From the NCBI RefSeq assembly GCF_036785885.1, contig NC_092326.1, positions 38,526,287-38,590,286 of the forward strand: DNA of 64,000 nt, given 5' to 3'. The notes under the pieces are model-generated. The model was not told the origin of the DNA and ran no database searches. It saw nothing but the letters and a program-made list of their open reading frames with translations. The DNA is from Coffea arabica. Lineage: Eukaryota > Streptophyta > Magnoliopsida > Gentianales > Rubiaceae. Shown here piece after piece: positions 10,522 to 54,311 of the stretch; positions within the stretch are counted from its first letter, which is position 1, and every line of letters starts with the position of its first letter. Both the position numbers and the translations under genes were made by a program.

Positions 10522-10526
10522 AATTT

Positions 10527-13500: not shown

Positions 13501-13879
13501 TCTTCAAATCTGGAACATGTCTAACATTTGTGAGCGTCCTCACAATACCATCATACATTTTAATCCGAATTGTACCTTTGCCAACAACTTTACAAACGGC
13601 GTTGTTACCTATTAAGACAACTCCACCTTCAGTTGATCCATATATTGAAAATCAGTCCCTATTAGGACACATATGATATGAACAACCCGAATCTAAAATC
13701 CACTCACTGTTAGACCTAAAATTATTTTCTGTTACACAGAAAATGATTCCATCATTCTCATCAACGGCAATACTACCCTCGGTACTTTCACTCCTTTTCT
13801 CCTTTTGCTTTTCTTTATTTTTCAATTTAAAACAATCAGAGATAACATGACCCTTCTTTTTACAATAGTTGCATACCAT
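10527..13879 (-). pseudogene. COPIA-1 pol remains (protease, integrase, RT, RNase H)
   Basis: Broken pol in several frames, read right to left. 13879-13652: zinc knuckle CNYCKKKGHVISDCF and protease WILDSGCSYHM. 13558-13250: rest of protease and the GAG-pre-integrase start ([10 protein letters not shown]). 13262-11931: integrase with GDYSRKV, LRTDNGMEF and QQNGMAERMNR, then the linker to RT (WKWIFKKKEG-like). A TAA stop separates KGYNQV from GIDFNDVFSP. 11912-11133: reverse transcriptase with LEQLDVKKAFL, LYGLKQSPRQWYKRFD and YVDDMLIA. 11120-10884 and about 10790-10730: RNase H pieces (DSDYVGDLDRRRSLSSYVF, TEAEYMAV, RTKHIDIKYH). The element cannot make a full polyprotein. Confidence 0.9.
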
Positions 13880-14030
13880 ATTTTTATGTCTGGATTTTGA
13901 TCTACTTCTATTTCTGTGTTTCTCTTTTCATATCTACCCCGAATAAACATGCCATCGGTTTGATTCCTACTAATTTTCCCAATAATATCTCTATCTATCT
14001 GCTCTTAGATTTTAATGCAGATTTAATTTT

Positions 14031-14495
14031 TCAATACAAAATTGTTTCCTTTTCATAAATCATAATATCACGGAAATGTTTAAAAGATTGAGGAAGGAAA
14101 CACAAAAGTAATAGGGCTTGATCTTCATCATCAATTTTTGAATCTATATTTTCCAAATCCATAATAATGGAATCAAATTTATCAAGATGTGAGACTATAG
14201 ATGTACCTTCAAACATTCGAAGCATATACAAACTCTGTTTCAGATATAACCGATTCTCAATTATTTTCTTCATATACAATGCTTTTAATTTGTCCCACAT
14301 AACCTTGGCCGAAGTCTCCATTGTTACCTCAAGCAATATCTCATCGGAGAGATTTAAGATTATGCTGGATTTGGCCTTCTTATCCATATCGACGAAATCC
14401 GCATCATTTACATCTTCTGGCTTTTTTTCATTTCTCTGAATTGCCAAATCAACTCCGTCTTGAACAAGAATGACCTCCATCTTGAGTTGCCACAT
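14031..14495 (-). pseudogene. COPIA-1 gag fragment
   Basis: Open segment of 154 residues of copia Gag type: MWQLKMEVILVQDGVDLAI, AKVMWDKLKALYMKK, LDKFDSIIMDLENIDSKI and LPQSFKHFRDIM. The coding sequence begins further upstream at about 14533, where a start-like ATG is followed within two codons by TAG. The frame also fails before the zinc knuckle near 13880. Confidence 0.88.
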
Positions 14496-14616
14496 TCCGA
14501 AATTGACATTCCTGTCGAATTTCTAGACAACCATCCTTGATATCGTTATTGTTGTCACAAAATCTGTAACTTGAAGTTTATCTCAATAAACTAGTCAAAC
14601 AAATATACAAGTCTCA

Positions 14617-14760
14617 TGAGCCCCACAGGGTGAGCGGACCCACAGGGATGAATGGGCCCTATGAGATGAGCGGGACCCACAGATAAATGATTCTCACGAG
14701 TGAACGAGCCCCACGAGATGAACAGACCCCACAAGTTGAACGAGCCCCACAAGATGAACC
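14617..14760. repeat. 18-bp minisatellite in the COPIA-1 leader
   Basis: About eight head-to-tail units of 18 bp of the form TGAACGAGCCCCACAAGA, with unit-to-unit changes. It lies between the primer site and gag, in the transcribed leader of the element. The units are contiguous, so this is not a CRISPR array. Confidence 0.85.
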
Positions 14761-14798
14761 TATCTTCCAAAATATATTAACCATCTCTAATACCAATT

Positions 14799-15337
14799 TG
14801 TTAGGACTGACCCAGGAATAAACAAACTAAAATTAGAACAAAATAAGTGACATAACCGATCATATAATACTTAGGCGGTATAACCGACCATATAATGATT
14901 AGGCGGTAAAATCAATCATATAAAAGGGTTGTGGCAATCCAATAAAAATAAATAACAAAGCAAAATAAAAGACACCAAAATTTACGTGATTCGGTCAAAT
15001 TGACCTATGTGCACAGACGAGGGAGGAGCAATATTTCTACTATGAAGAAAAAAATATAAAAGCCGTAGGAAAGTGGTTCTTAGACCACAATGACACTTAC
15101 AAAAGGTTTAGAAAATATTTCTAAACTCAAAACAAGAGAGTCTAAAATATTTGACTATAAATGGGTTAGATGATCCAAAAAACTAATAACTCATATAATG
15201 CTCTCTTGAGTGGTGTGATTTAAAACCTTCATAAGGTTCCCTTATTTATAGGAAACCAAAGGAAGAATTCCTTTGGCTTCTGTCGATGTGGGATAAAGCA
15301 AAAAACGCATTGGTCAACAAACACGCATCGTTCAACA
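14799..15337 (-). repeat. COPIA-1 5' LTR (right)
   Basis: 539 bp, TGTTAGGACT to GTTCAACA, matching the left LTR with many substitutions. It is followed by target duplication GATGT at 15338-15342. As the 5' LTR of a minus-strand element it would carry the promoter. Confidence 0.93.
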
Positions 15338-15342
15338 GATGT

Positions 15343-17669: not shown

Positions 17670-17896
17670 AAAAGAGAAAAGCAATTAGGAAGTAGTGACA
17701 GAAGTTACAGAACACGGTAAACCCCGCCCCACCCATTTTCCCTTCGGGTTTTGTTTAGATTTTACCATCTCAAAACGAACCGTAGAGTCGGCGAGAGTGG
17801 GAGTCGAAGAGCGGGAGAATAAAAAGAAGAAATTCCGAATCCCTAATCCTAATTTCTCAATATACTGTCTTCATTTGGCGAGCTCAAATCTCTCTG
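17670..17896 (+). other. SF3A1 copy 1, putative distal 5'UTR exon
   Basis: Block shared with 49003-49227. It ends CTCAAATCTCTCTG followed by GTCAGT, a donor-like site, with no ATG continuing into a long frame. The coding exon at 20549 begins right after TTTTTGCAG, so a leader intron is expected. A related block at about 19780-19970 suggests the leader region was duplicated in tandem. The transcription start is not determined. Confidence 0.55.
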
Positions 17897-19387
17897 GTCA
17901 GTCCTTCTTCGCTTTAATCATTTCCATTTGTTTCCTTTTATTTTTGTTTTTCGTTTTGAAGTTCTGTAATGAATAAACCCTATAAATGTAGAAGTTTCCG
18001 CTTTTGGTTGGGGTTCTGTAAAATTCAGGTAAAGTTGGTGAATTTGACTAAGAAGTAGCAGGCTTTCACTTTATAATTACCTCTTTACTCTATTTTTATG
18101 CTGAAATCTTCTTTTTTAGGTTACTCTTTGGGGTTTGGGATTTTTTGTGTTTGGTTAGCGACAAGTTATTCTTGCTTGCTGATTTGGTGATTTTTGTTCT
18201 CTGAAGTCTGAATCTTAATGGGCTTTGTTCTTTGTCTGGACAGGTGAATTTCATCGTGATTATTCTTTTCTGAAGTTGGTTGCTCTGTTACAATAATATT
18301 TGTTCTCGTTTTCAGCATAGCCAGCTTTCTAACATGTTAAACTTCGTTTATTCATTTTGCTTTTGATTAGGATTTTGTAGTGATACGAGTTGATATGTAG
18401 ACATATGGGGTGGAAATGTGTGTGAATGTTTGTCTTGAGGGACTTGAAAAGTTTGTGGATGGTCTCAAATGGGTTGGAAAGTGTACTCTAGTTTGTGTTC
18501 TTCATTGGGGGTGATACTCCTTCTCTTGTAATCGTGCTCATGTTTTGGGGAAAAAATGTCAATTTCCGAAAAGATTCCACCTTCTCGCTAGTTTTTCATT
18601 GTTAAATGGATTCCCTCCCCCCTTTTAATTTCAGCAAACAAAATAGTTAAAGAAAATCTCGTAGAGAGGCAACCCACTTGGATTTGGGATAGGACAAAGG
18701 ACTTCAGAGACAACCATCTTGGATTTACTTCATTTTATTATAAAAAAACACCGTTAGAAAGCCCAAGTGCAATTGTATCTTAACTCGTGTTGGAACAAAT
18801 GATGGAAAAGCTTGTACTTATTTCCTAGTCTTTGAACCAGACCTACTGGATTGTTTGAGTTAACCAGACACCAAACTAATTTGTTTTAATATCAGAATTG
18901 AGTTTAAAAACATGCATTCAAGTACCTTCAATGATTTTAAAAACTTGTAAATTCAAGTACCTCAAGGTGTTTGGAACGGTAGGAAAGAGAGGTAGAGAAT
19001 GTAAGTAGGTGCATATTAATATGGGTAGAATTTGTAAAATAAGAGGCGGTACTAAAATAGGCTTTGTATTGTCTTACTCATTAGTTCTTTGACCAACGTT
19101 GGATTTCTTGTGTCTAGTTCTGTATCTTTGAATTCTTTAAACCCTGGCCATCCCACTTGTTTGCCATTAATGCACAAATTGTTAGTGGTAAAGTGCTAAA
19201 TTGATATTATAAGTGAGAAAGTACAAATTAATAATAGTTTTGGAGTGAATGTTGTAATTACCCTTTTTATTGTTATTTCTGTATACCGTTTATGATGTAT
19301 ATTAGTGGTGTTTGTTGTGTATGCACATATAGATAAGAAATAAATTGAAGAGGGAAGCTTTTGATGAATCAATATGAAGTGGGGCTA

Positions 19388-19975: not shown

Positions 19976-20836
19976 CTTTACTCTTTCTTTATGCTGAGAA
20001 AGTTTCTTGTTATTCCTTGGTGGTTGGGGGATATTTTCTGTTAGGTCAGTGATGAGTTCTCCTTGCTTATTTTAGTTGGTGATGTTTTTGCTGAAATCTG
20101 AATCTTGATGCTCTAATGAATTTCATTGTGATCAGTTTATTCTGAAGTTGGTTGTTCTGTTACTGTAATTTATTTATTTTCATTTTAAGCAGAGGTGCTT
20201 TTCTAACATGTTTGATTCGTTAGTTTATTTTGCTTGTACTTGGGATTATGTAGTGATTCCACTTGATGTATGTGAACATATGTGATGAAATATGTTTGTG
20301 AATGTTTGTCTTGAGTGAATTGAAAAGTTTGTGGATGGTCTGAAGTAGACATGAACTCATACCTAGTTTATGATCTTCAAGGGGGTAATACCCGTCTCTT
20401 GTAGTTGTGCTCATTTTTGAGGTCTTCATCGTGATAAAGCTTCATGAAGTCATGAGTTATCAGAGCATGATATGCTAGGAAGTAAAAATAGTGTGCTGCA
20501 TGTGTTTTTTGTTGGTTTGTTTTTAACTTTTTTGTGAACTTTTTGCAGACCATCTGGAAATGTTGGGCAATTTGCCGATATTGCCTTTACCTGCACCCCC
20601 TTCTGATGGTAATCTTGGGCCTGTACCACTAGCTCAGATAACTGAAGAAGACGAGAAACAGAATGGAAGTCAAGAGGATCTGAGCAAAGCTGACAACTCC
20701 AACTCAGCTCCTATTTCGGTTGCGACTCATACGAGAACTATTGGTATTATTTATCCTCCTCCAGATATCAGAAACATTGTTGACAAGACATCTCAGTTTG
20801 TGGCCAAGAATGGTCCTGAGTTTGAAAAGAGGATTA

Positions 20837-21084
20837 TGTTGAAGATATGTGATCTGATATTATGGAAAGATTTGATAATATAAATATTAGGAAAGATCTG
20901 ATTATAGTATCATATATTAATTAGGTATCATATGATTATAGTATCATATATTAATTAGGTAATAGTATGATTATAGTATCATATGATTATAGTATCCACT
21001 TGTGTATATATATATTTGTATATTGTGTAGTCCAAAGTGAAATAGAAGAAAAGTATTTTTTCTCTCCATTTTTCTTAGTTTACA
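20837..21084 (+). repeat. COPIA-2 5' LTR
   Basis: 248 bp, TGTTGAAGAT to TTAGTTTACA. It contains internal short repeats of GATTATAGTATCATAT and a TATATATATATTTG stretch that may serve as the TATA region. Confidence 0.96.
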
Positions 21085-21231
21085 TGGTATCAGAGCCCGT
21101 CTAGGGTTCTGGGAAAAATACCACCTTTGCTTCTTGTCAATTCCAACCTTAATTGCTGGTTCCTTTCTTATTCTCTCCAGCCTTCATTGCTGTTCCTGTT
21201 ACTATACATTTTTCCCCCCTTCTATTCAATC

Positions 21232-22173
21232 ATGGCGGATGCTACATCCTCAACGCGGCAATTGTCTTCAACTATGGAAGAAGAACAAAGTATACGGAAC
21301 ACAACAGAGCTTCAAAACATCCAGGCAGCATATAGACTAAATGAAAAAAATTATTTGAAGTGGTCTCAATTGGTTCGAACATTCCTGAAAGGAAAAAGAA
21401 AGTTGAGTCATCTATTGGAAATAGCACCGGATAGTGAAACGGCGGGGTTTGAAGCATGGGAACAAGAGGATTCAATGATCATGTCTTGGTTATGGAATTC
21501 CATGATTCCTGAAATCAGCGATACATGTATGTTTCTTCCTACAGCAAAGGCAATTTGGGATGCCCTTCATCAGACATATTCCAAGGTTAATGATGCAGCT
21601 CTTATCTATGACATCAAGACAAAGACAACTGGAGCAAAACAAGGGACAAAAACAGTGACGGAGTATGCCAATTTTCTGCAAAACCAGTGGCAGGAACTGG
21701 ATTATTACAGGGCACTTGATTTGAACTGTAGCAAATGTGCAGTGTTTATCAAGAAGTTCATAGAAAGGGATCGAGTTTATGATTTTTTGGCTGGCCTAAA
21801 TTCTAAATTCGATTTTGTACGAATTCAAATTCTGGGCAGGCCAGAGTTTCCTTCTTTAATAGAAGCAATATCCCAAGTACGTGGAGAAGAAAGTCGCAGG
21901 GGTATTATGTTAGAGCTACCTTCAATAGAAAATTCAGCCCTTTTAAGTTCCAAATCTCAGCGGTTGGTACTGAACAAGGTTGCTGCGGACAAGACCAATC
22001 AAACAAGTGGGCCAAAGAATCGCGAGGAGTTGTGGTGCACATACTGCAAGAAACCACGACACACCATAGATCAATGCTGGAAACTACATGGGAACTACCC
22101 ACTCGTGAATGGGGACAAAAAGGTGGCCAGCAAAGGCAGGCTCATATGTCAGTTCAAGATCCAACTCAAGTGA
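21232..22173 (+). CDS. COPIA-2 Gag polyprotein
   Basis: The open frame begins at 21127, but the likely start is the internal Met at 21232 (MADATSSTRQLSS), which lies past a hydrophobic stretch unlike Gag. From there it is 313 residues. Copia Gag features: LNEKNYLKWSQLVRTFLKG near the N-terminus, AIWDALHQTYSKV, a long helical middle, and a CCHC zinc knuckle CTYCKKPRHTIDQCW near the end. It stops at 22171-22173, about 30 codons after the knuckle, in a frame that differs from pol. Gag forms the particle that packages the element RNA (family knowledge). Confidence 0.9.
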   Translation: MADATSSTRQLSSTMEEEQSIRNTTELQNIQAAYRLNEKNYLKWSQLVRTFLKGKRKLSHLLEIAPDSETAGFEAWEQEDSMIMSWLWNSMIPEISDTCMFLPTAKAIWDALHQTYSKVNDAALIYDIKTKTTGAKQGTKTVTEYANFLQNQWQELDYYRALDLNCSKCAVFIKKFIERDRVYDFLAGLNSKFDFVRIQILGRPEFPSLIEAISQVRGEESRRGIMLELPSIENSALLSSKSQRLVLNKVAADKTNQTSGPKNREELWCTYCKKPRHTIDQCWKLHGNYPLVNGDKKVASKGRLICQFKIQLK

Positions 22174-25100
22174 TTAGAGGGTTTAGTATGGAGGAAATTG
22201 AGAAGCTTAAAAGTATGTTAGAGACAGTTGACAAACCAGCAACTAACAATTCTCAATCAAGGAATCCGGGTATGTGTTCATTGACACTTTCAGGTAAGGC
22301 TCTAGTCTCTTTTGCATTTAGTGTTTTAGGCAATGAGCTTAGGAATGTCTGGATTCTTGACTCTGGTGCTACGGATCATATGACTCATATTTCAAATAAA
22401 TTCAAAACCTATAATCCCTGTCCTAGCAATAGAAAGATTGTTGTTGCAGATGGTACTACAACCACTGTGGCAGGTATTGGAGATGTCCAAGTTACTCCAA
22501 ATTTGATTCTTAAAAATGTTCTTCATGTTCCTCGATTATCTACAAATTTGGTTTCTGTAAAAAAACTTGCCAAGGATCTAGCTGGCTCTGTTATATTTGA
22601 TGAATCCTGTTGTGACTTTCAGGACCGGGGCTCGGGGAAGAGGATTGGACTAGCTAAGGAGCATGATGGACTCTATTACTTGGATACATCAAGTCAACCA
22701 GAATTTAGTAAATCTGCCCTGTCCACATTGTCTTCACCCTCCAATAAAGATGTCATCTGGTTACATCATAGACGTCTAGGTCATGTGTCTTTTTCTGCAT
22801 TAAAAATAATGTTTCCTTCCTTGTTCAAGGGATTTGATGTTCAGTCTTTTCATTGTGATATTTGCGAGTATGCTAAACACACTCATGTCCCATTTCCTAT
22901 CAGTAATAAACGATCGTCTTCTCTTTTCTTTTTAATCCATAGTGATATTTGGGGGCCATCAACTATTCCAAACATCTCAAGGTCTAAGTGGTTTGTCACA
23001 TTTATCGATGACTGCACAAGAGTCTCTTGGATCTATTTACTCAAAAATAAGTCTGATTTGAGTTATATTTTCCCTGTTTTTCATGCAATGATTCAAAATC
23101 AATTTGGCACCAAGATAAAACACTTTCGTTCAGATAATGCTCGTGATTATTTCAATCAAACTTTGAGTCAGTTTTTCCAAAAAGAAGGAATCATACATGA
23201 ATCATCCTGTATTGCCACTCCACAACAAAATGGAGTGGCAGAACGGAAAAACCGACATCTTCTTGAGTGCACTAGAGCCTTACTGTTTGAACAAAGTGTG
23301 CCAAAAGCATATTGGGGAGAAGCTGTACTCACATCAGCTTATGTCATAAATAGAATTCCTTCCAAGGTCTTGGGGTTTCAAAGTCCACTAGAGAACCTAT
23401 CCAAATTTTACCCCGATATTCGATCTTCCTTTAATTTCACTCCTCGAGTTTTTGGATGTACTTCCTTTGTTCATGTCCATAGTCATAACCGTGGGAAGTT
23501 AGATCCTCGTGCTCTTAAGTGTGTCTTCGTGGGGTACTCATCTACTCAAAAGGGTTACAAATGTTATCATCCACCTACTAGAAAACTCTATGCCTCGGCA
23601 GATGTTACATTTGTTGAAAATAAGCCCTATTTCATCACTCCTTATCTTCAGGGGGAGTTAGATACACTTGAAGATAAGGAGTTAAAATTTCCCTCCTTAG
23701 AGTTGACCACATCTGAGTCATCCAAATCTGAATTTCAAGAGTCAATTCTTCAATCTGATGTGGTAGAAGAAAAAAAGGAAGACCGTAAAATCTATGACTG
23801 GTTCCGGTTTGACCAAGTGTATACAAGGAAAGGAGATTCCATCGTGGTTACAAGGCAAGAACAATCCTCTAAATCAAGCTCCGGGAATGAGGTAACAATG
23901 AGTGAATCAAATCTGAATTCTACACCACCGACCGACCATTCTTCCAGTTCTAAATCACCTTGTCCTGAGCCTCTTAGCCTTGACCAGGACCTACATCTAC
24001 CTATTACTGTAAGGAAAAAACCCCGAGAATGCACCAAAAGACCCCTATATCCATTGTCTCACTTTGTGTCTTTTGAGAAGTTTTCCCCGAGCCATCAAAG
24101 CTTCCTTTCCACCTTAAATACAGTCTCTATTCCTAGCTCATTGTCTGAAGCATTATCAAAGAAAGAATGGAGACTTGCTATGGAAGTAGAAATGGATGCA
24201 TTAGAGAAGAATGGGACATGGGAATTAGTTGATTTACCAAAGAACAAGAAAGTAGTGGGCTGTAAATGGGTGTATGCAGTAAAGTTTAAAGCAGATGGGT
24301 CCCTAGAACGCTACAAGGCAAGATTAGTCGCGAAAGAATACACACAGACATATGGAGTAGATTATCGGGAAACATTTGCTCCAGTAGCAAAGATGAATAC
24401 GGTGAGAATTCTGCTATCCTTGGCTGTTAATTTTGATTGGGAATTACAGCAATACGATGTGAAGAATGCTTTTCTTCATGGAGAGTTAGAAGAGGAGATT
24501 TATATGAGCATTCCACCGAGATTCAGTGGGGTTGACAAAAACAAGGTTTGTCGGTTAAAAAAGGCATTATATGGGCTGAAACAATCCCCATGTGCTTGGT
24601 TTGGACGATTTGCCAAGGTAATGATAGCTAATGGTTACAAGCAAAATCAAGGAGATCATACCCTGTTCATCAAGCATTCAGCCTTGGGGGGAGTTACTGT
24701 TTTGATTGTATACGTAGATGACATCATAGTGACAGGAAACGATGAAGTAGAGAAGAAAACTTTGAAGTGGTGCCTAGCCAAGGAATTTGAAATAAAGGAT
24801 TTAGGAAAATTGAAGTATTTTCTGGGAATTGAAGTGGCTCGATCAAGGCAGGGAATTTTTATTTCTCAACAGAAGTATGTTATGGACCTGCTCAAGGAAA
24901 CAGGCATGACAGCAAGCAAACCAGTTGGAACTCCCATTGAGCAGAATCACAAATTAAGTGAGGCTCATGGAGATACAGCTGTGGACAGAGAGATGTACCA
25001 AAGACTTGTTGGGAAACTCATTTATCTCGCACATACTAGGCCAGATATAGCTTACTCAGTCAGTGTTATTAGTCAGTTTATGCATGATCCTAGAGCAGTT

Positions 25101-25667
25101 CATCTACAAGCAGTTTATCGAGTGCTTCATTACTTAAAGGCACATCCAGGGAAGGGAATTTTATTCAAAAAGGGTCCTGAAATTGATCTGGCAGTTTACA
25201 CAGATGCAGACTTTGCAGGGTCTCCAGTTGACAGGCGATCAACTTCAGGATATTGTACATTTCTTGGAGGAAACTTAATATCCTGGAGAAGCAAGAAACA
25301 AAGTGTAGTAGCAAGGTCAAGTGCTGAAGCAGAGTTCAGGGCTATGGCAGCAGGGGTATGTGAATTATTGTGGGTTAAAATTATCCTAGAAGACTTGAGG
25401 ATTCAATGGAGCAAACCGATGAAGCTATATTGTGATAACAAATCTGCTATAAGTATAGCTCACAACCCAGTGCAACATGATCGGATGAAGCACATAGAGA
25501 TAGACAGGCACTTTATTAAAGAGAAGCTAGAAAGTGGACTGATTTGTACTCCATATGTTCCGACAGGACTTCAACTTGCAGTTGTGATGACAAAGGGACT
25601 GTGTAACAACATGTTTCATGAAAGTGTTGTCAAGCTGGGAATGGAAGATCTATATTCACCAGCTTGA
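22032..25667 (+). CDS. COPIA-2 Pol polyprotein (PR, IN, RT, RNase H)
   Basis: Open frame of 1211 codons that overlaps the end of gag in another frame. Domains in order: aspartic protease WILDSGATDHM (about residue 106), GAG-pre-integrase (WLHHRRLGHVSFSALK, about 242), integrase core with FIDDCTRVSW, FRSDNARDYF and QQNGVAERKNRHLLE (about 325-410), reverse transcriptase with ETFAPVAKMNTVRILLSLA, LYGLKQSPCAWFGRF and IVYVDDIIVTG (about 780-900), and RNase H with YTDADFAGSPVDRRSTSGYC, SSAEAEFRAMAAG and YCDNKSAISIAHNP (about 1055-1145). No internal stop. The first ATG at 22032 is within gag and is probably not used as a start, since copia elements normally translate gag-pol as one frame. Confidence 0.93.
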   Translation: MVHILQETTTHHRSMLETTWELPTREWGQKGGQQRQAHMSVQDPTQVIRGFSMEEIEKLKSMLETVDKPATNNSQSRNPGMCSLTLSGKALVSFAFSVLGNELRNVWILDSGATDHMTHISNKFKTYNPCPSNRKIVVADGTTTTVAGIGDVQVTPNLILKNVLHVPRLSTNLVSVKKLAKDLAGSVIFDESCCDFQDRGSGKRIGLAKEHDGLYYLDTSSQPEFSKSALSTLSSPSNKDVIWLHHRRLGHVSFSALKIMFPSLFKGFDVQSFHCDICEYAKHTHVPFPISNKRSSSLFFLIHSDIWGPSTIPNISRSKWFVTFIDDCTRVSWIYLLKNKSDLSYIFPVFHAMIQNQFGTKIKHFRSDNARDYFNQTLSQFFQKEGIIHESSCIATPQQNGVAERKNRHLLECTRALLFEQSVPKAYWGEAVLTSAYVINRIPSKVLGFQSPLENLSKFYPDIRSSFNFTPRVFGCTSFVHVHSHNRGKLDPRALKCVFVGYSSTQKGYKCYHPPTRKLYASADVTFVENKPYFITPYLQGELDTLEDKELKFPSLELTTSESSKSEFQESILQSDVVEEKKEDRKIYDWFRFDQVYTRKGDSIVVTRQEQSSKSSSGNEVTMSESNLNSTPPTDHSSSSKSPCPEPLSLDQDLHLPITVRKKPRECTKRPLYPLSHFVSFEKFSPSHQSFLSTLNTVSIPSSLSEALSKKEWRLAMEVEMDALEKNGTWELVDLPKNKKVVGCKWVYAVKFKADGSLERYKARLVAKEYTQTYGVDYRETFAPVAKMNTVRILLSLAVNFDWELQQYDVKNAFLHGELEEEIYMSIPPRFSGVDKNKVCRLKKALYGLKQSPCAWFGRFAKVMIANGYKQNQGDHTLFIKHSALGGVTVLIVYVDDIIVTGNDEVEKKTLKWCLAKEFEIKDLGKLKYFLGIEVARSRQGIFISQQKYVMDLLKETGMTASKPVGTPIEQNHKLSEAHGDTAVDREMYQRLVGKLIYLAHTRPDIAYSVSVISQFMHDPRAVHLQAVYRVLHYLKAHPGKGILFKKGPEIDLAVYTDADFAGSPVDRRSTSGYCTFLGGNLISWRSKKQSVVARSSAEAEFRAMAAGVCELLWVKIILEDLRIQWSKPMKLYCDNKSAISIAHNPVQHDRMKHIEIDRHFIKEKLESGLICTPYVPTGLQLAVVMTKGLCNNMFHESVVKLGMEDLYSPA

Positions 25668-25674
25668 GGGGGAG

Positions 25675-25922
25675 TGTTGAAGATATGTGATCTGATATTA
25701 TGGAAAGATTTGATAATATAAATATTAGGAAAGATCTGATTATAGTATCATATATTAATTAGGTATCATATGATTATAGTATCATATATTAATTAGGTAA
25801 TAGTATGATTATAGTATCATATGATTATAGTATCCACTTGTGTATATATATATTTGTATATTGTGTAGTCCAAAGTGAAATAGAATAAAAGTATTTTTTC
25901 TCTCCATTTTTCTTAGTTTACA
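25675..25922 (+). repeat. COPIA-2 3' LTR
   Basis: 248 bp, matching the 5' LTR except for one visible base. It is followed by target duplication GATTA and then by the rest of the SF3A1 exon. Confidence 0.96.
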
Positions 25923-28214
25923 GATTATTGCTAGCAATGCTGGGAATCCAAAATTTAACTTTTTGAATGCCTCTGATCCATACCATGCGTACTATCAGCA
26001 TCGTTTATCTGAAGCCCGTGCACAAAATCAGGTTTCTGCTCTACAGCCATTGCAACTGGCAGATTCAGCTGCTCCTGAGTCCGCTGCTGCTGCCCCGGCT
26101 GCTAATGGCAAGGATGCGACTGCAAAGCCTGATCCATCAGTGCAGTTTAGGCCTGTTCGTAAAATTCTTGAACCCCCTGAAGCAGAGCAGTACACTGTTC
26201 GCCTCCCTGAAGGGATTACAGGGGAGGAGTTGGACATAATTAAGCTTACTGCCCAGTTTGTCGCAAGGAATGGGAAATCATTTTTGACTGGATTGACCAG
26301 TAGGGAGATTAACAATCCTCAATTTCTTTTTCTAAAACCAACCCATAGCATGTTTATGTTTTTTACATCTCTTGCGGATGCTTATTCGAAAGTATTGATG
26401 CCTCCAAAAGCGTTAACAGATAAGTTGAGAAAGAGTGTAACTGACATGACTACGGTGCTTGAAAGATGCCTTCTTCGCTTGGAGTGGGAACGGTCGCAGG
26501 AGCAGGCTAGGCAGAAAGCTGAAGATGAGATAGAACAGGAGCGATTGCATATGGCCATGATTGATTGGCATGACTTTGTTGTAGTAGAGACCATAGACTT
26601 TGCAGATGATGAGGATGAAGATTTGCCCCCTCCTATGACCCTGGAGGAGGTTATACGAAGAAGCAAGATGACAGGTATGGAAGAAGAGGAGATCATTGAG
26701 CCTGGGAAGGAAGTAGAAATGGAAATGGATGAAGAGGAGGTGCAGCTTGTTGAGGAGGGCATGAGGGCAGCTAGTCTTGAAGAGAACGGGGACCTGAAGA
26801 ATAATGAAGCTAAGGTTACAATAGATGAAGCAGAACCACCTATGAGGATAGTAAAGAATTGGAGGAGACCCGAGGAGAGGCTACCTGCTGAAAGAGATCC
26901 AACTAAATTTGTTGTGTCTCCAATAACTTGTGAGCTGATTCCTGACAATGAGATGTCTGAACATATCAGGATCTCTTTAATTGATCCAAAGTACAAGGAG
27001 CAGAAGGAGAGGATGTTTGCAAAAATTAGGGATACAACTCTTGCTCCTGATGATGAGATCACAAAAAATATTGTTGGACTTGCTCGAACCCGTCCTGATA
27101 TTTTTGGTACTACTGAGGAGGAAGTCTCTAATGCTGTTAAGGCAGAGATCGAGAAGAAAAAAGATGATCAACCAAAGCAAGTCATTTGGGATGGGCATAC
27201 AGGAAGTATTGGTCGTACAGCAAGTCAGGCCATGTCTCAGAATGCTGGTGGAGAAGATCTAAATGAAGCAGGCAACAGTGACATGAGAAATCTTCCAGGT
27301 CCTGCAGCTCCTCCTCCTCCCAGACCTGGCATGCCATCAATTAGACCTCTTCCTCCACCTCCTGGACTTGCCTTGAATATCCCTAGGCCTCCTAATACTG
27401 TTCAGTATTCAACCCCAACTGGTCCCGGTGTTTTGGCTCCACCTCCACCTAGGCCTCCAGTCGTCGGTGTTCTGCCTAGACCTGCACCTCATCCGATGTC
27501 AATGATGCCGGGCCAGCAACCTCTGATGGTAAATCGACCCCAAATGCATCCGTCCATGTCCATGAATTCCCCCAACATGCCTGTGCCACCGCCACCTGGA
27601 TCTCAATTTACACCTTTGTCTGCTCCGCGGCCTTTTGTTCCCCTTTCCATGTCACAACCTGGCATGCCTATGGTCCCACCGCCATCCATGCCTCAGGGAA
27701 TGCCACCACCTCCACCTGAGGAAGCTCCTCCACCACTTCCTGAAGAACCAGAACCAAAAAGACAGAAACTTGATGATGCTCTGCTTGTTCCCGAGGACCA
27801 ATTTTTAGCTCAACATTCGGTATGATGCACTTTTGCATTCATTTATATTTGTGATTTTTTTTTAAAAAAAAAATTTTCCTTTTGTACAAAGAGAAGGTTT
27901 TACGTCATTGGTTGTAATTAAGCTTGCATTTGTGTGCACTGCAGGGACCTGCTCGTATCAACGTGTCTGTGCCCAATCATGATGAAGGCAATATGAAAGG
28001 GCAGGTGCTGGAGATTCTTGTGCAGTCGCTGTCTGAAACTGTCAGCAGCTTGAAAGAGAAAATAGCTGGTGAGATTCAACTTCCGGCTAACAAACAGAAA
28101 CTGAGTGGAAGGCCTGGTTTTCTCAAGGACAATTTGTCGCTCGCATATTATAACGTTGCACCCGGAGAAACACTTCAACTCTCTCTCAGAGAGCGTGGAG
28201 GAAGAAAGAGATGA

Positions 28215-29296
28215 GAAGCTTAACATTGGCCAAAGCCTTGGAACGCTTTATTTTCCTATTTGGATCTGTTACTTCTCATTGTCCTATCATTGTCTCACCA
28301 AAATTATTTTTTGTGATGTTTAGAGCTTCCTTTGAAATTGCTTATTGAGTGATAAGGAGAGTAAACTGTCTTTTCTTAGTTCGGAATATCTGTATGTACA
28401 TTTCCTATAAACTCTAGATTAAAAAATCAAGCTAATTAACGGCATCCTAAACTCTAGCTATCTAACCCCAGACAAGTAACCTTATAGTCCATAGTCAAGT
28501 TTTACTGTTTAAGTTTACAATTAGGCAGATGGGTTATGGATGCAAATTATGCCTATCTTTTTTTTTTTTTTATATATATATAAAGAAATCGATTCTAGGG
28601 TAAAATGAAGAGTCAGTTGACTACTAAAATTTTCACGTAATTGATTGCAAGTAGGTTTTACTGTCCATCTCCTGACGAAAGACTGAATTTGATGCTAATT
28701 AAACCAGGAATTGCTCAATTTTCACAAAAACTTGACAAAAATTACTTCTTATTATTACTTGTTTTAGATATTGTATAACTGGCGTTTAAGAATTTGTTAT
28801 TGTGTCGTTTGCAACAAACGTTCAAAACTAGATTGAATATGGCGTCCCAGAAGCACACCATGTCTTGAGGTGCAAATAGGAGGAACACAGTAAACAGGAA
28901 TGGCCTTCAATTTACCCATTCGAAGATGAAAATGTTCCTCCCAGCAAAATCTGCACCTTTGAAAGCTTATCATCTATAAAAGCTGAAAATGATTTCAGTG
29001 TAAACTTCCACGCCTTTGCCTGACAAGTTTAGGCTTACATCTACGAGTAATGTTATGTACACAAGGGAAAATGTTCTTGCCAACTTCAAGGGTAGCTACA
29101 TTAATTCATTTCTATCCAGCTTCAAAATTCCAAACCAGCAGATGCAAGTTCTCATGTATACTTTCCATCAGAATTCGTCGTTGCCTCAGCTGCTGCTTTA
29201 GAAAATAAAGCAATGCCTGCCTCATCCAGGATTTGTGAAAACTGTAGAGTTGAAGAAGACAAGTGGCAGCTGAGTGTAGATAGCAATCGGCGACTT
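28215..29296. other. Spacer between convergent SF3A1 copy 1 and VSR
   Basis: Shared with the second copy only to about 28290 (CATTGTC). Beyond that it is AT-rich with a poly-T/TATATATA stretch at about 28560-28582 and no recognisable gene. The right part presumably contains the VSR 3'UTR. Confidence 0.5.
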
Positions 29297-32200
29297 CTAC
29301 ACAGATGAACGTTGTTGAAGAGGCTCAGCTTCATGATGGACAACCTGATTTTGCTGATTGTCGATTGGCATGTACTGTGACATGATGGCCATAATCTCCG
29401 AGTCCATGTAAGACTGCAAATCAGATGGAAGTTAGATACATGAAATAGATGATCGCAATGTAAGAAGTTTGTTGAGCTGATGATAATGAGACATACTCGA
29501 AGTCTATATTTGTAGAAGATGTAACCAGCCATGCTAGCAGCCACTACTGCAGCTAAAACCAATAATGTGAGGAACCACCCGAATTTTGATGTGTGCCTTT
29601 CTGTAAGGAATGAGAAAGATAGTAATTAGTAATTTGTTCTTTGTTTGCAGCATCCTACTAAAGTACATATTTTTCATCTCCCCTCAGGGGATAACTTGTT
29701 GAGTGCATAGCTTTTAACCTTATTACTAGCAACTCAAACGTACTGTCCTGTTGATAAAAGGTGGTTTGCCTCTCATTACAAGGAAAACAGTAAGAAATAG
29801 AAATGAAAAAGATGCAGGAAAACTGAAGTTAATGAAGTCTTGAACTGATACATGTGTCCTGATGCATAGGAGCTTATGTTTGTATACATAAGCAAAAAGA
29901 GAGAGAGAGAGATTATATATTGCAAACAAACAAGTAAAAGTAAATCTATTTATTTTGAAGAAATGAATCGTCGTTAAAGAAGTGAGTTTCATTTTCTTGA
30001 GTGACAACCTAAGACATTTGCTGTGGTTGAGGTTTTGGGCATTCCTGCAGACTATTCTGACATGGACGATATTCATAGGTCAGGTACACGAAAATACTAT
30101 CTAATCTTGTATACCTAGCCCCATGTGGTGGGAGTCTTGTGCATTATATCTTCTTATGCTGTTTACAAATAAGGCAGCAAGAGTAGTCTTTTGAGCTTTT
30201 TTTTTTTGTTGGTTTATTCGATGGGCAATTTTTAAATTAATAAGCACACGCACTTAGGAAGTCTGAGTAAATAAATCCCATAAAAATAGGCTCACATTGT
30301 ATTCTGCATGGAATATGTACTCAGGATTGAAAGTCAACACTTGTTAGGGTATTTAGATGTAGAGCTGTTAAGCCAATCGAGTAGCTCGAAAGCTCGTTAG
30401 AGCTCGGCTCGTTAAGGCTCGAGCTCGGCTCTTTAATTTTAGTTAACGAGTCGAGCTCGAGCTCGAAACATGCTCGTTTAGTTAACGAGCCGAGTAAGCT
30501 CGGCTCGTTTGATACTCGAGTAGCTCGTTAGAGCTCGTTAATGAAGGGCATATTTGTCATTTTAGAAATCAAAATTATATAAATTAAAAATTATAGGTTT
30601 TTATTAATGTTAATTTGCACGAGCTCGTGAAACTCGACTCGTTTGTCACAAACGAGTCGAGCTCGAGCTCGAACTCGAGCCACATGTACATTTAACGAGC
30701 CGAGTTCGAACACATTTTAAAGTTCGTTTTCTTAACGAGCTCGAGTTGAGCTCGGCTCGAATTAAACTCGAGTCGAGCTCGGCAACCAAATACTCGGCTC
30801 GACTCAGCTCGATTAACAGCTCTATTTAGATGGAACTCTATGCAAGCAAGGAGATATCAGCAGATTGAAGCAAAGAATAAGACATAGTTCATCTTTTACA
30901 TTTTGGTGGCTCTTACATCTTTTTTACCCTAGATGAATATTAGAATCTCGGAAAAATATGAAATTTTCATTTCAACCAAAGAGAAAGATAATGAAACTAG
31001 TCGCACATGATGTGTTTAAAGCAGCAAACAACTCTGTGTTACTTCTGCAGAATCGCAAATTCCAATCAATTTGAGATGATTTTTCTTACCAATGCAGGTA
31101 TCGTGCTCCAAAATGTAAAGTTTGTCCCCTCTGCAACCGCACTCAAATCCGCTCCATGTGTTCTTACAGGTGCAATCATCACATTGACAAACTTTACCTT
31201 CCTTACATTCATCTATTTCTGTCATACATTAAAGAGTAGAACATTGAATTGAAATCTCAGATTAAGGCAGTAAACTTAAGAATGATAGCCAGAGCTAAGT
31301 AGAAGACTGGGGATCTTATATATGTTAAAGAGTTATCCATCTTTGACAATGGCAGGAAAGCACCTTCACATCTATAGCCATCTCCAGTGAATCCAGGAGG
31401 ACAGTGACAGCCTGTAAGATCAGATTCCTGTTTATCCACAGAAGGATATCATATCAACATTAGAATGGTAGAATCCATAAAAAAACTGTTGTCTTTTGAA
31501 AAGTAATGTATCACTGAACTGTGCAAGCTGAAACTGTCAGTCCATGTCGAGTTTCTGACCAGCACCCTCCATGATTGACCATGCATCTTCCAGGTCCAAC
31601 AGCTGCAAATATAAAAGAGGAAGCAAAAGCGTAAGAGGCATGAATCCTGGATAGTATGTGCCTACGAGGTTATAATTCTAAGGAGAAACTCAGGTGCAAT
31701 CTTTGAATATAGAATTGAACATAATTTTAATTGGCCACTTATGTAAAGCAGCAGGGTTGGAATTGGTGAATGTGTAAGATACTTGCATGCCTGTTGGATC
31801 TAGGCAATGCGACAGAACAAAGCGAAATCACTTAAAATGTTATCTCGTAATGCCTTATTCTGGACCGCAAAAGCCCCCCAAAAAAATGGTTCCAGGAAAA
31901 GATTCCTTCACAAGTTGATAATAAAAGGGGAACATGTTTGGAAGTATCAAAGCTAAATTGTTGAAAGATATATCTCCCTATAGAATAGAATAGATACCTT
32001 CACAAGACTTGTATCCATCTCCTCTATATTGCACACCATTCGCTGAAGGGCACTGACAAACTCTTCCCCTGAATGTATCCTTAAGAAATAACAAATAAAG
32101 GCTGATAAGAGAGCAGCTAAAGTGGTTTATTCGTGTATTTCAATCATTCCACAGCAAGAAGCACAAGTCACCACGTGTATGTAATCAGAAGAAATGCTTT

Positions 32201-35200
32201 CACTTACCTTGCAGGCAGTTATGTTAGAATGAGAATCCTGCCAACAGCCACCATTGTTTTCAAGGCACTCGTTGGTCTCAAGATCTGTTTGTAAAGCAGA
32301 GAGATCAGATGATGCTACATAAGTACTATTTCTGTCACTAGCAAAAACCATCAGCCATGCAGAGCCAAACCTCCATTTAGACAAATGGGAGGATCAGTAG
32401 TCTCCTTGAATCCAGCGCAAATGGCTTTTAAGACGGCAATCCTCTCTAATTTTCCTTCATGGAGCGAAGAAAAAGTAAATTTAGTTTAGTTAGCAAAACA
32501 AAAATCCATCATTAACTAGAAAAATAGTTTCTTTAGATAATTATATGGTTAATTGTTTGATGTAGAAGCATTTCACATTATATGCTTTGGTCAAACTAAT
32601 TGAAGTATGATCAGAAATGCCACAACCAAATCAGAATTCATTCAGATTGTAAATTTGTTGGAGTTGCAAGAGTAAGTATTACAAATGAAATTCGCAATAG
32701 GGAATATGTCTCAGGAAAACCCATCCCGTTTTCTGAAATATTGTCTCCAATCTTGTGTCATTCTTACTGTGATTGAATTAAGTTATCAATTCAGTTACTA
32801 ATTTTGTTTGGATAAACTAATGCAAGATAATGCTGTTACTCCCAAATGAGTCCTTTTTATCTTCAGGAGAAAAAGGAGGCCAAAAGCTGCAGTTGCAGAC
32901 AGAATCTTGCATCTGATCTTAACTCGAAAAATTTTAATCAGAATGGATGACCATGTCAGCTGGCCAGCATCTTTGAACTGATACAGAAAATTACAAGTCC
33001 AATGTTTTCTCCATTAACCATCCAAAAAGAATGTGGATTAATCTTCTGAAGTAATATCCAAAACTACCAAGGGACTACAAGTATTGAACAACATAGACAT
33101 CTGTAACAAACCTCTGTACTGGACATCGTTTATAACCAATGTTGGCAATATTGTGACATCACCTCGAGATCCTCGACCAACCTAGATTTAACAAGGAACA
33201 AAAAGTCAATGTAATCGTCATTCATCCACCAAATCAGGTCTAATTTTTGTCTCATCAGCGTTAATTTCTGACAACTGAGACAAATAAAATTGAGGTGTGG
33301 AGATTGTAAGAACCTGGAGGTCTTGTTCAATTTTAAGTACTTGATTTTCCACATCAGCTTCGGGGTCACCCATACAACTCTTTATCTTCTCAATCGGTAG
33401 ATCTGATGGACAAGATACGTAAATAATTGAGTATTTTCAAAATGCAAGATCAATTTGTTCTGCAGAAAAAGCTTTTGAGAGCAGAACTTACGCAGCGATC
33501 TCATAACCTCCTCTGCACATTCCTTGCTGTATTTCTTTTGCTTCATTGAACACCTAATGTGGAAGTCTGTCACATAATCCCACCAAACCCAAGAGCGGTT
33601 GCTCTCATTCGCAACTCTGTGCACGCAGAGCTGTCTTAAATTTTCAAATACTACGTCCTTTCCTTGATACCCCATCCCAAAGTCTTGCTCAGGATCAGGT
33701 GCACAGTATCTTCCATGATTGATGCACTGAGACTTGCATTGACTGCTAAGAAGAAAAGCGTGAGGACAATACCAAGTTATGTAGTGTGGTGTGAAACGGG
33801 TGTATCCACCCTTCTCAAGAATCTGAGCATTGCCCTTAAAATTTTTGATGAAATTCATTTGTTCATCACACCGGATTCCACACTCATCATTACTATTGGT
33901 CCACAGCTCATACTCCACCCTCTGATCAGGATGTGGCATTGACTCCGACCAGTCAATTTTTACAACAACATTTGCAGCTTTCTTCAGTGCACCCTTTATG
34001 GATTCACCGACAGAATGATCAATCAAAACTGAAGGGACTCCAATCTTCTCCAAGTATCCATCTGCATCTGAGCTTTCTTCCGGTGAATCCATAGTTATTA
34101 GGGGCTCATCTACGCTATCAGCCACTAAAACTGCAGCAGCACCAGCTTGTTGTCCATTCCATACCTTCAAAGCGAAGTAACATCCTGTAAAGGGCAGAAA
34201 AAAGTTTTAATTAGAGACCACAGCGTTCCATTGCATCATAAAATTGTTTGTTCTAATTACTTGTTATTGGTTTCAATCGGGCTCGTCCATTTATCTCAAA
34301 AAGGTCTCCTGGTAATTGGTATGCAGCTAAAAGGTTCCCTCCACTCTCCCAGAAACCAGAATTAGCATGATTTCATAACAAGACAGGAGAAAAGAAGTAG
34401 AATTTCATCAACCACGGCCAAAACTTGAGATTCCATAAATCTGCAGTGTTTAAATTCCACTTTTGAACCCCTACCAATTGTTGCTCCGTTTATACTGTAA
34501 CCAAAATTATTTTGATTGGATTAGCATTCTGAGTTCATCCAGGACTTTCCGTTAAGCATCAATAATCCATGCACAAAGGATAGTATTCCAGGACCCAAAA
34601 TTGTTTGGGTGCCTCTAGGAAGACACAGATGGGTAATATAAGAACAGCTTGATGCATCAGAATCAACTTATTTCCTCTGAAAAATAAAAAGAAGTTTGCA
34701 CAAATACACCAGAAAAATCAAAGGTTTTAAATTAGGAAACTATAGTTGATTAAATTAAAAAAAAAAGCTATAAACTGCAAATTGATTCTCTGCCGTCGGA
34801 TGATCACATGGCAGAAAGTATCAAGGTTGACCATGAAAACAGAGCAATAAAACAGAGTAACTAAATCTGGACATCCAAAAAGACAATTTAATTACCTAAA
34901 GGACAGAAGCAACACATCAAAATCTTCTAAACAACGTTAAACTCACTTTAAAAAAATTAAAAAGAAATAATCCCACCACCTTAAAGAGCTAACTACTAAA
35001 ATCCCATTCTCCAAATTCTCAAAAATTGTTAAATTGCATATCACATAGACACATGCAGATGTATAAAACTAACAAAAAAAAAAATTGCACCAGGAAAAGC
35101 GACAGGAGAAGAAGAAAGCTGATGATTACCTCCACGATCAAGGAGGAGGATGGTGGGAGTGGAAGACTTTGACCTGAAGGGCTTATCACCCTCAAAAGGA

Positions 35201-35436
35201 GAACAACCAGTAGCACCTGTATCAGGATAAACAACAGTTCCAACCATTGATCCTCCATAGTCAGGCACACCAAAGTTGCCAATAGCAGCATCGTGCTTGG
35301 AGCGAATATCAGAAGGATCAAGTATACTAATACTACTCTTCTCCACCACGAATCTTGCCTCAGTTAAAAAACTAGTACTAGACAATACAAGGGTGGATAC
35401 AATCAAGAAAGCTCTTGAAAACAGAGTATTTGCCAT
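29297..35436 (-). CDS. VSR: Vacuolar sorting receptor (BP-80/VSR family)
   Basis: Type I membrane receptor that binds vacuolar sorting signals and recruits clathrin adaptors at the trans-Golgi and prevacuolar compartment (family knowledge). I place 12 exons, 5' to 3': 35436-35130, 34184-33492, 33402-33314, 33181-33112, 32454-32371, 32284-32208, 32079-31998, 31602-31520, 31427-31364, 31218-31090, 29600-29497 and 29413-29297. They total 1899 bp, or 632 residues plus stop, the usual family size. Features: signal peptide [20 protein letters not shown]; protease-associated domain ([16 protein letters not shown]); central region with WYCPHAFLL and [18 protein letters not shown]; Cys-rich EGF-like repeats ([40 protein letters not shown]); transmembrane [20 protein letters not shown]; and a cytosolic tail with the YMPI tyrosine sorting motif. 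The Met at 35436 is preferred over one 12 codons upstream because it places the signal peptide at the N-terminus. No counterpart follows SF3A1 copy 2. Confidence 0.95.
30360..30823. mobile_element. MITE rich in GAGCTCG palindromes, in a VSR intron
   Basis: Left end AGAGCTGTTAA and right end TTAACAGCTCT, flanked by ATTTAGATG at 30351-30359 and 30824-30832, a 9-bp target duplication typical of Mutator-like elements. The interior is full of GAGCTCGAGCTCG and CGAGTCGAGC strings on both strands and encodes nothing. It lies in the large last-but-one VSR intron. Related sequence is seen at about 46190-46830. Confidence 0.85.

Positions 35437-36576: not shown

Positions 36577-36584
<8 letters not shown>
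35437..36584. other. VSR upstream region
   Basis: Promoter and leader side of the vacuolar sorting receptor gene. It includes a short GA/CT run (35641-35661) close upstream of the start, common in plant leaders, several poly-A/T tracts, and an (AAT)n run at about 36213-36238. No other gene is recognised. Confidence 0.5.

Positions 36585-36664
<80 letters not shown>
36585..36664. repeat. (AT)40 microsatellite
   Basis: Uninterrupted AT dinucleotide run of 80 bp, preceded by ATACATAC. A short reading frame through it is only the repeat translated. Confidence 0.98.
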
Positions 36665-36668
<4 letters not shown>

Positions 36669-38124: not shown

Positions 38125-38134
38125 CCCTTGGAGG

Positions 38135-38320: not shown

Positions 38321-38330
38321 CCCTTGGAGG

Positions 38331-39747: not shown

Positions 39748-40077
39748 CAAAATGACATTTTCAAAGGCAAAAAAGGTTATTCATTTGACAGTTAGGTAAC
39801 TTTTGTGGTCTGAAAATTATTTATTTACAATCATGCTAAACTCTTGTTTTCTTCAGACTTCAGTAGTAGAATGGATTGGACCATTGGAGTTTCGGTTCAT
39901 CACTTTTTGGGCTCTAAGGAGGGCCGAAGGCCCGTGTTTGAGTAATGACGGCCGTATTCATTCGTCATGTTTTAGATATTAATTGTAAATTTCTAGGCTT
40001 TAGCCTTGTAATTTGCACAGTATTGAAATTTTAAAAAAAAAATTAGGGTTTTCACAGTAGTTTCTAGGCTTAGTAGA

Positions 40078-51752: not shown

Positions 51753-54311
51753 ATGTTGGGCAATTTGCCGATATTGCCTTTACCTGCACCCCCTTCTGAT
51801 GGTAATCTTGGGCCTTTACCACTAGCTCAGATAACTGAAGAAGACGAGAAACAGAATGGAAGTCAAGAGGATCTGAGCAAAGCTGACAACTCCAACTCAG
51901 CTCCTATTTCGGTTGCGACTCATACGAGAACTATTGGTATTATTTATCCTCCTCCAGATATCAGAAACATTGTTGACAAGACATCTCAGTTTGTGGCCAA
52001 GAATGGTCCTGAGTTTGAAAAGAGGATTATTGCTAGCAATGCTGGGAATCCAAAATTTAACTTTTTGAATGCCTCTGATCCATACCATGCGTACTATCAG
52101 CATCGTTTATCTGAAGCCCGTGCACAAAATCAGGTTTCTGCTCTGCAGCCATTGCAACTGGCAGATTCAGCTGCTCCAGAGTCCGCAACTGCTGCCCCAG
52201 CTGCTGATGGCAAGGATGCGATTGCAAAGCCTGATCCATCGGTGCAGTTTAGGCCTGTTCGTAAAATTCTTGAACCCCCTGAAGCAGAGCAGTACACTGT
52301 TCGCCTCCCTGAAGGGATTACAGGGGAGGAGTTGGACATAATTAAGCTTACTGCCCAGTTTGTCGCAAGGAATGGGAAATCATTTTTGACTGGATTGACC
52401 AGTAGGGAGATTAACAATCCTCAATTTCTTTTTCTAAAACCAACCCATAGCATGTTTATGTTTTTTACATCTCTTGCGGATGCTTATTCGAAAGTATTGA
52501 TGCCTCCAAAAGCGTTAACAGATAAGTTGAGAAAGAGTGTAACTGACATGACTACGGTGCTTGAAAGATGCCTTCATCGCTTGGAGTGGGAACGGTCGCA
52601 GGAGCAGGCTAGGCAGAAAGCTGAAGATGAGATAGAACAGGAGCGATTACATATGGCCATGATTGATTGGCATGACTTTGTTGTAGTAGAGACCATAGAC
52701 TTTGCAGATGATGAGGATGAAGATTTGCCCCCTCCTATGACCCTGGAGGAGGTTATACGAAGAAGCAAGATGACAGGTATGGAAGAAGAGGAGATCATTG
52801 AGCCTGGGAAGGAAGTAGAAATGGAAATGGATGAAGAGGAGGTGCAGCTTGTTGAGGAGGGCATGAGGGCAGCTAGTCTTGAAGAGAACGGGGACCTGAA
52901 GAATAATGAAGCTAAGGTTACAATAGATGAAGCAGAACCACCTATGAGGATAGTAAAGAATTGGAGGAGACCTGAGGAGAGGTTACCTGCTGAAAGAGAT
53001 CCAACTAAATTTGTTGTGTCTCCAATAACTGGTGAGCTGATTCCTGACAATGAGATGTCTGAACATATCAGGATCTCTTTAATTGATCCAAAGTACAAGG
53101 AGCAGAAGGAGAGGATGTTTGCAAAAATTAGGGATACTACTCTTGCTCCTGATGATGAGATCACAAAAAATATTGTTGGACTTGCTCGAACCCGTCCTGA
53201 TATTTTTGGTACTACTGAGGAGGAAGTCTCTAATGCTGTTAAGGCAGAGATCGAGAAGAAAAAAGATGATCAACCAAAGCAAGTCATTTGGGATGGGCAT
53301 ACGGGAAGTATTGGTCGTACAGCAAGTCAGGCCATGTCTCAGAATGCTGGTGGAGAAGATCTAAATGAAGCAGGCAACAGTGATATGAGAAATCTTCCAG
53401 GTCCTGCAGCTCCTCCTCCTCCCAGACCTGGCATGCCATCAATTAGACCTCTTCCTCCACCTCCTGGACTTGCCTTGAATATCCCTAGGCCTCCTAATAC
53501 TGTTCAGTATTCAACCCCAACTGGTCCCGGTGTTTTGGCTCCACCTCCACCTAGGCCTCCAGTCGTCGGTGTTCTGCCTAGACCTGCACCTCATCTGATG
53601 TCAATGATGCCGGGCCAGCAACCTCTGATGGTAAATCGACCCCAAATGCATCCGTCCATGTCCATGAATTCCCCCAACATGCCTGTGCCACCGCCACCTG
53701 GATCTCAATTTACACCTTTGTCTGCTCCCCGGCCTTTTGTTCCCCTTTCCATGTCACAGCCGGGCATGCCTATGGTCCCACCGCCATCCATGCCTCAGGG
53801 AATGCCACCACCTCCACCTGAGGAAGCTCCTCCACCACTTCCTGAAGAACCAGAACCAAAAAGACAGAAACTTGATGATGCTCTGCTTGTTCCCGAGGAT
53901 CAATTTTTAGCTCAACATTCGGTATGATGCACTTTTGCATTCGTTTATATTTGTGATTTTTTTTTTTAAATTTTCCTTTTGTACGAAGAGAAGGTTTTAC
54001 GTCATTGGTTGTAATTAAACTTGCATTTGTGTGCACTGCAGGGACCTGCTCGTATCAACGTGTCTGTGCCCAATCATGATGAAGGCAATATGAAAGGGCA
54101 GGTGCTGGAGATTCTTGTGCAGTCGCTGTCTGAAACTGTCAGCAGCTTGAAAGAGAAAATAGCTGGTGAGATTCAACTTCCGGCTAACAAACAGAAACTG
54201 AGTGGAAGGCCTGGTTTTCTCAAGGACAATTTGTCGCTCGCATATTATAACGTAGCACCCGGAGAAACACTTCAACTCTCTCTCAGAGAGCGTGGAGGAA
54301 GAAAGAGATGA
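51753..54311 (+). CDS. SF3A1: Splicing factor 3A subunit 1 (SF3A1), intact copy 2
   Basis: Subunit of the U2 snRNP SF3a complex, needed for branch-site recognition in pre-mRNA splicing; nuclear (family knowledge). Coding exons 51753-53921 and 54042-54311 give 812 residues, close to other plant SF3A1 proteins. Domains: SURP1 at about 70-120 (IRNIVDKTSQFVAKNGPEFE), SURP2 at about 190-245 (LDIIKLTAQFVARNGKSFL), the PRP21-like charged middle at about 250-480 (LERCLHRLEWERSQEQARQK), a Pro/Met-rich stretch at about 530-690, a basic EPKRQKLDD signal, and a ubiquitin-like C-terminus from the last exon (VLEILVQSLSETVSSLKEKI) that ends RGGRKR, the motif known to contact U1 snRNA in the human protein. 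Start: the ATG lies 11 nt after acceptor TTTTTGCAG. The ORF's apparent end QHSV-TGA is only intron read-through at the GTATGA donor. Confidence 0.96.

Follow-up and report, generated by a model that had tools for sequence, protein, structure and literature searches.

Has one of two SF3A1 duplicates in Coffea arabica recently been lost to a retrotransposon insertion? This question is raised by a stretch of 64,000 nucleotides (the window; contig NC_092326.1 of assembly GCF_036785885.1, positions 38,526,287 to 38,590,286 of the forward strand), which contains two copies of SF3A1 (Prp21, SF3a120). Copy 1 is broken at codons 91-93, within the first SURP domain (SURP1), by a full-length Ty1/copia element at 20837-25922 whose long terminal repeats (LTRs) are young, and copy 2 presents the empty site. 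We consider it very probable that a real and young insertion of this element has inactivated one of two constrained duplicates, in which case copy 1 would be a new pseudogene and copy 2 would carry the function.

The interrupted gene was identified as SF3A1 through its intact copy. In exon 2 of copy 2, Pfam profiles detected two Surp stretches, the first at residues 71-121 (SURP1), together with PRP21_like_P. The copy 2 protein is 99% identical to the Coffea eugenioides protein P0001, with 100% of the query covered, and the precomputed domains of P0001 include ubiquitin (PF00240); the SF3A1 architecture of two SURP domains, a PRP21-like region, and a C-terminal ubiquitin-like domain is thus complete. 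Furthermore, exon 2 matches human SF3A1 from solved spliceosome structures (5z56, E value of 8.5e-93). Because both copies carry N46 and R405, which P0001 does not, they are unlikely to represent the P0001 allele of C. eugenioides. According to a commentary, an Arabidopsis prp21 mutant shows intron retention and abscisic acid sensitivity in germination (PMC12198954); the gene therefore matters, and in the window the intact copy 2 remains.

The insertion site could be defined to the base. The interval 20832-25927 is bounded exactly by two copies of the target sequence GATTA, which occupies the last base of codon 91 through the first base of codon 93. At the corresponding position, copy 2 contains a single GATTA and no element, reads ...GAAAAGAGGATTATTGCTAGC..., and continues in an uninterrupted frame. 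When the flanks of copy 1 are joined and compared with copy 2 over 310 bp, 5 positions differ, the closest of which is 115 bp from the junction. The coding part of exon 2 measures 2169 bp in either copy, the sum for copy 1 being 277 + 1892 bp if GATTA is counted once. Chance cannot account for this combination of target duplication, empty site, and exon length. A preliminary description of the window, made from the sequence by eye, had proposed a copia insertion in the SURP1-coding part with a perfect GATTA duplication, and the recomputed coordinates and the split of the Surp profile confirm it. The pre-insertion sequence that it placed in copy 2 at about 52024-52038 corresponds to the lone GATTA at 52025-52029, and the exact exon-length match and the single-base difference between the LTRs (1 of 248) were likewise reproduced. 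As a separate observation, the two copies are nearly alike around this site, with 2 differences in a partly coding 509 bp (20400-20836 and 25928-26000), which may represent a gene-conversion tract.

The element spans 5,086 bp, begins with TGTTGAAG, and ends with TTTACA; its two LTRs of 248 bp have TG...CA ends and are 99.6% identical. The sole mismatch, at LTR position 212 (21048 versus 25886), falls in a polyadenylation hexamer, which reads AAGAAA in the 5' LTR and AATAAA in the 3' LTR. The notion of a selected change was set aside as coincidence, since the hexamer covers 6 of the 248 positions and its overlap with the mismatch was spotted post hoc. The LTR also contains a TATA-like sequence. 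The likely primer-binding site is presumably of the initiator-methionine tRNA type. In the gag frame, the copia-type Pfam profiles Retrotran_gag_2 and Retrotran_gag_3 matched with E values of 2e-5 and 4e-5, each slightly below the curated cut-off. Integrase (rve, 302-396 of the pol frame) precedes reverse transcriptase (RVT_2, 727-970), which is the copia order. The gag and pol frames differ and overlap at 22032-22173, and there is no single gag-pol frame. Among the best 120 of 4387 matches, relatives such as P0122 (1498 amino acids), P0124 (1454), and P0128 (1457) combine gag and RVT_2 in one protein, which suggests that the present copy, barring sequence error, is probably not autonomous as it stands; intact relatives exist. 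The features of the element and of both SF3A1 copies are compiled in Table 1.

Table 1. Features of the copia element and of the two SF3A1 copies (positions in the window)
Feature	Positions	Strand	Remarks
SF3A1 copy 1, exon 2 coding part before the element	20560..20836	+	Codons 1-92 plus the first base of codon 93, with the left GATTA; a single difference from copy 2 (51753-52029) over 277 bp
Left target-site duplication GATTA	20832..20836	.	
5' LTR	20837..21084	+	248 bp, TG...CA; 99.6% identity to 25675-25922
Likely primer-binding site TGGTATCAGAGC	21085..21096	+	Read by eye
gag frame	21127..22173	+	CX2CX4HX4C zinc knuckle (knuckle by eye)
pol frame	22032..25667	+	Beta-barrel domain, pre-integrase, integrase, SH3-like, reverse transcriptase (Pfam); frame differs from gag
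Likely polypurine tract GAGGGGGAG	25666..25674	+	Adjoins the 3' LTR; read by eye
3' LTR	25675..25922	+	AATAAA at LTR position 210 (AAGAAA in 5' LTR); acceptor-like pyrimidine tract at its end
Right target-site duplication GATTA	25923..25927	.	Its G after the LTR-final CA gives a CAG acceptor-like triplet
SF3A1 copy 1 beyond the element	25928..28214	+	Remainder of exon 2, ending at 27819; intron 27820-27944; exon 3 as far as the stop
Empty site	52025..52029	+	One GATTA in copy 2
SF3A1 copy 2, intact	51753..54311	+	812 amino acids; exon 51753-53921, intron 53922-54041, exon 54042-54311

The frame of copy 1 enters the LTR and stops at 20881, 107 codons after the ATG, and SURP1 is thus not encoded in one uninterrupted frame. 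The 5' piece keeps about half of SURP1 (positions 1-25 of the 53 of the Surp profile), and the downstream piece, from 25963, matches only one Surp, namely, the second. When the flanks are joined, copy 1 has no stop other than its normal one, and the frame past the insertion runs unbroken to its regular end; the earlier claim that the rest of copy 1 is still open thus holds with respect to stops, although it already carries five amino acid changes of its own. Past the insertion, an ATG in the proper frame first occurs within SURP2, at 26350; six ATGs in other frames precede it on this stretch, and a scan of the 3' LTR from 25800 onward added another two. In mammals, SURP1 binds SF1 and SURP2 binds SF3a60 (excerpt of PMC4666396), so that neither piece of copy 1 would be expected to retain both contacts. 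From the reading frame, with its stop after 107 codons, we infer that copy 1 is knocked out, in support of the proposed loss of one SF3A1 duplicate, and this loss is probably complete.

To place the insertion in time, the divergence of the LTRs was compared with that of the two copies. The coding sequences differ at 23 positions, 16 synonymous and 7 nonsynonymous, corresponding to a synonymous divergence (dS) of 0.029, a nonsynonymous divergence (dN) of 0.0037, and a dN/dS ratio of 0.127, which indicates that both copies were under constraint for the greater part of their history. Promoter, 5' untranslated region, and first intron diverge by 3.9% (Kimura two-parameter distance, 997 aligned bp), and the flanking blocks diverge by 7-10%. 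The single LTR difference compares with 7.3 expected at the synonymous divergence of the copies (P = 0.0056) and with 9.7 expected at their promoter/intron divergence (P = 0.0006). Because the LTRs are significantly more similar than the copies, the insertion is younger than the duplication, and its recent nature, as initially claimed, is borne out in relative terms. With a rate of 1.3e-8 per site and year, as applied to Coffea LTRs elsewhere (excerpt of PMC11018527), the dating by LTR divergence that had been suggested as a check yielded an age of approximately 0.16 million years (Myr; interval 0.004-0.86).

The seven amino acid differences between the copies were polarised with P0001; five of them (positions 22, 152, 157, 275, and 427) were assigned to copy 1 and two (positions 146 and 615) to copy 2. 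Conservation was assessed in 48 plant homologues, hand-picked from 120 listed. Position 427, affected by G427C in copy 1, is G in all 48, and position 275, affected by H275L, is H in 41, N in 6, and R in 1. If they arose after the insertion, these copy 1 changes would fit a release from selection.

The insertion, the empty site, the broken frame, and the young LTRs are direct observations, and the following course of events would account for them. A tandem duplication in Coffea would have given rise to two SF3A1 genes, each kept under purifying selection, and an approximately 5.1-kb Ty1/copia element then entered the SURP1 codons of copy 1 in the sense direction some 0.16 Myr ago, duplicating GATTA. 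Transcripts from the copy 1 promoter would either end in the LTR or read through, with a fragment of at most 107 residues as product, and transcripts from the 3' LTR would lack an in-frame ATG ahead of SURP2. With a truncated 5' product and no early downstream in-frame ATG, copy 1 would be a new pseudogene, and SF3A1 function would be borne by copy 2. Several points weigh against this account. The 5 versus 2 polarised changes alone are no significant excess, and the polarity at position 157 depends solely on P0001, since the homologues vary there and 9 of the 48 share the T of copy 1. The age interval is wide and rests on one LTR difference. Gene conversion may have lowered the divergence of the copies (approximately 3-4% at silent positions of the gene versus 7-10% in the flanks); they would therefore look younger than their true age, which would blur the time scale. 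We also counted against it that the SF3A1 listing contains a single Coffea cluster of 15 proteins, the members of which are not distinguishable.

Several other explanations of the locus were weighed; they are not mutually exclusive, so that our probabilities for them overlap and do not sum to one with that of the favoured explanation. The changes G427C and H275L strike conserved residues and could precede or follow the insertion, and the element might have landed in a copy that was already dead through G427C or another lesion. This appears rather unlikely, given the overall dN/dS ratio, the lack of any other coding stop or frameshift, and the retention of the intron 1 acceptor and of both splice sites of intron 2; in addition, five protein changes are close to neutral drift since the insertion, as a hand calculation at the LTR rate gives approximately 4.9 expected substitutions of all kinds over the 2439-bp coding sequence. 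Alternatively, copies 1 and 2 could be two haplotypes misplaced in tandem, whereby the insertion would be a heterozygous allele and no duplicate would be lost. The gene order is indeed identical in both units, but the 7-10% flank divergence is high for alleles, an approximately 11.5-kb vacuolar-sorting-receptor stretch is present in one unit only, the window has no N gaps, and an extra inverted piece at 48268-49001 suggests a true rearrangement, all of which makes merged haplotypes very unlikely. A shortened protein is a further option: the 3' LTR could drive an SF3A1 form without SURP1 and the start of SURP2 that keeps the PRP21-like and ubiquitin-like parts and perhaps interferes with the intact protein. 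Element and gene are co-oriented, the frame after the insertion has no premature stop, the LTR has its TATA-like sequence, and ONSEN insertions in Arabidopsis can create alternative starts (excerpts of PMC12112155). Translation of such a transcript would have to pass the six out-of-frame ATGs ahead of the first in-frame one and the two in the 3' LTR, and no separate shortened Coffea SF3A1 was found in the best 120 of 1349 matches, in which P0001 alone exceeded 88% identity, an argument that is weak with the 15-protein cluster unsplit. We give this option a slim chance.

Splicing could also rescue copy 1 if the element were excised as an intron and a near-full-length protein were still made, as for Evelknievel in CMT1. 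Donors (GT or GC) at 20700-20881 and acceptors at 25675-25990 were scanned for U1 pairing and pyrimidine counts. The acceptor at the LTR end is excellent (exon start at 25917, 19 of 20 pyrimidines versus 15 and 13 at the gene's own two), and a second acceptor at 25924, composed of the LTR CA and the G of the target copy (16 of 20 pyrimidines), has the same junction type as splice variant SV2 of Evelknievel (excerpts of PMC6238269). Of the donor-acceptor combinations, eighteen preserve the reading frame across exon 2, and that of donor 20838 and acceptor 25917 does so with the addition of four residues; moreover, when full-length ONSEN copies newly inserted into Arabidopsis genes, the majority were spliced out (excerpts of PMC12112155). 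However, no frame-keeping pair with a donor at 20700-20881 unites a strong acceptor with a donor as good as the gene's real one. The sole donor near the real one in U1 pairing, 20744 (-4.2 versus -4.4), requires the weak acceptor 25892, and donor 20838 lacks favourable U1 pairing (+1.1). The top LTR donors, 20925 and 20959, lie past the stop at 20881, and therefore a transcript seemingly without the element could still be truncated. The whole removal of ONSEN chiefly concerned intronic insertions, with one exonic case in the same excerpts, and a spliced product of copy 1 would still bear G427C and H275L. Full in-frame rescue by splicing thus appears highly improbable. The chance is smaller still that the copia element has become a brand-new 5-kb intron, excised in frame via the LTR/target acceptor (for example, with four additional residues in SURP1); if true, a splicing-factor gene, whose product belongs to the branch-point recognition machinery and whose SURP1 is the SF1-binding module in mammals, would rely on splicing around a transposon.

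The loss of a duplicate through the insertion of an LTR element is a familiar route, and under the favoured explanation, inactivation of copy 1, the locus is a fresh and tidy case of an established process rather than a novel type of system. A close parallel is Evelknievel, located in exon 13 of CMT1 in Arabidopsis, where a copia-like LTR element also lies in a coding exon and breaks the frame of a gene with a paralogue, and where LTR end and target duplication also form an acceptor; its LTRs are perfect, and it was found in some ecotypes only. The two cases differ in that an element-free ecotype and transcripts demonstrate splicing-out for Evelknievel (excerpts of PMC6238269), whereas here a neighbouring tandem copy within one genome serves as the control, at the DNA level. 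ONSEN in Arabidopsis genes likewise provides recent LTR-retrotransposon insertions, with truncation, alternative start or end, and intron-like removal as outcomes, but in an experimental burst with RNA data and for a different element family (excerpts of PMC12112155). A tandem pair of SF3A1 genes also exists in Arabidopsis, namely, atSAP114-1a and -1b (At1g14650 and At1g14640). As far as the excerpts of PMC545797 go, the second copy looks reduced, with two SURP domains and the ubiquitin domain not listed, an apparent expressed sequence tag/cDNA number (the meaning of this column is presumed) is given for the first copy and none for the second, and, in contrast to the present case, a retrotransposon is not named as the cause. 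A literature search pairing Coffea with SF3A1 found nothing, and further searches yielded precedents and, among the papers listed, none on this locus. The locus offers an internally controlled snapshot of duplicate loss, with long constraint, one young disrupting event, and altered conserved residues in the copy that was hit, and the insertion, which may be polymorphic, is a handy presence/absence marker for Coffea populations. The understanding of spliceosome evolution is unchanged, because the gene is still present in intact form 31 kb away.

The two SF3A1 copies belong to two tandem units, 17667-43326 and 48999-58178, each of which contains SF3A1 and the same downstream block. The stretch that is specific to unit 1 (28293-39749, ends by eye) begins approximately 80 bp past the SF3A1 stop and contains the vacuolar-sorting-receptor coding sequence on its minus strand. 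The inverted piece at 48268-49001 is a third copy (94-95%) of 18429-19162 and 49768-50511 and adjoins the start of unit 2, and it is likely a rearrangement scar. Upstream of each SF3A1, at 17687-18550 and 49018-49888, there are older partial copies (approximately 70-74%) of the SF3A1 5' region and first intron. Elsewhere in the window, 9985-15340 is probably an old copia element, with 543-bp terminal repeats of 88.8% identity and a fragmented pol on the minus strand, and pieces of another copia pol lie on the minus strand at 60694-62649. An open gene for a PPR-repeat protein of 639 amino acids is located at 5109-7028, and a frame at 22-528 has a partial match to the HORMA domain.

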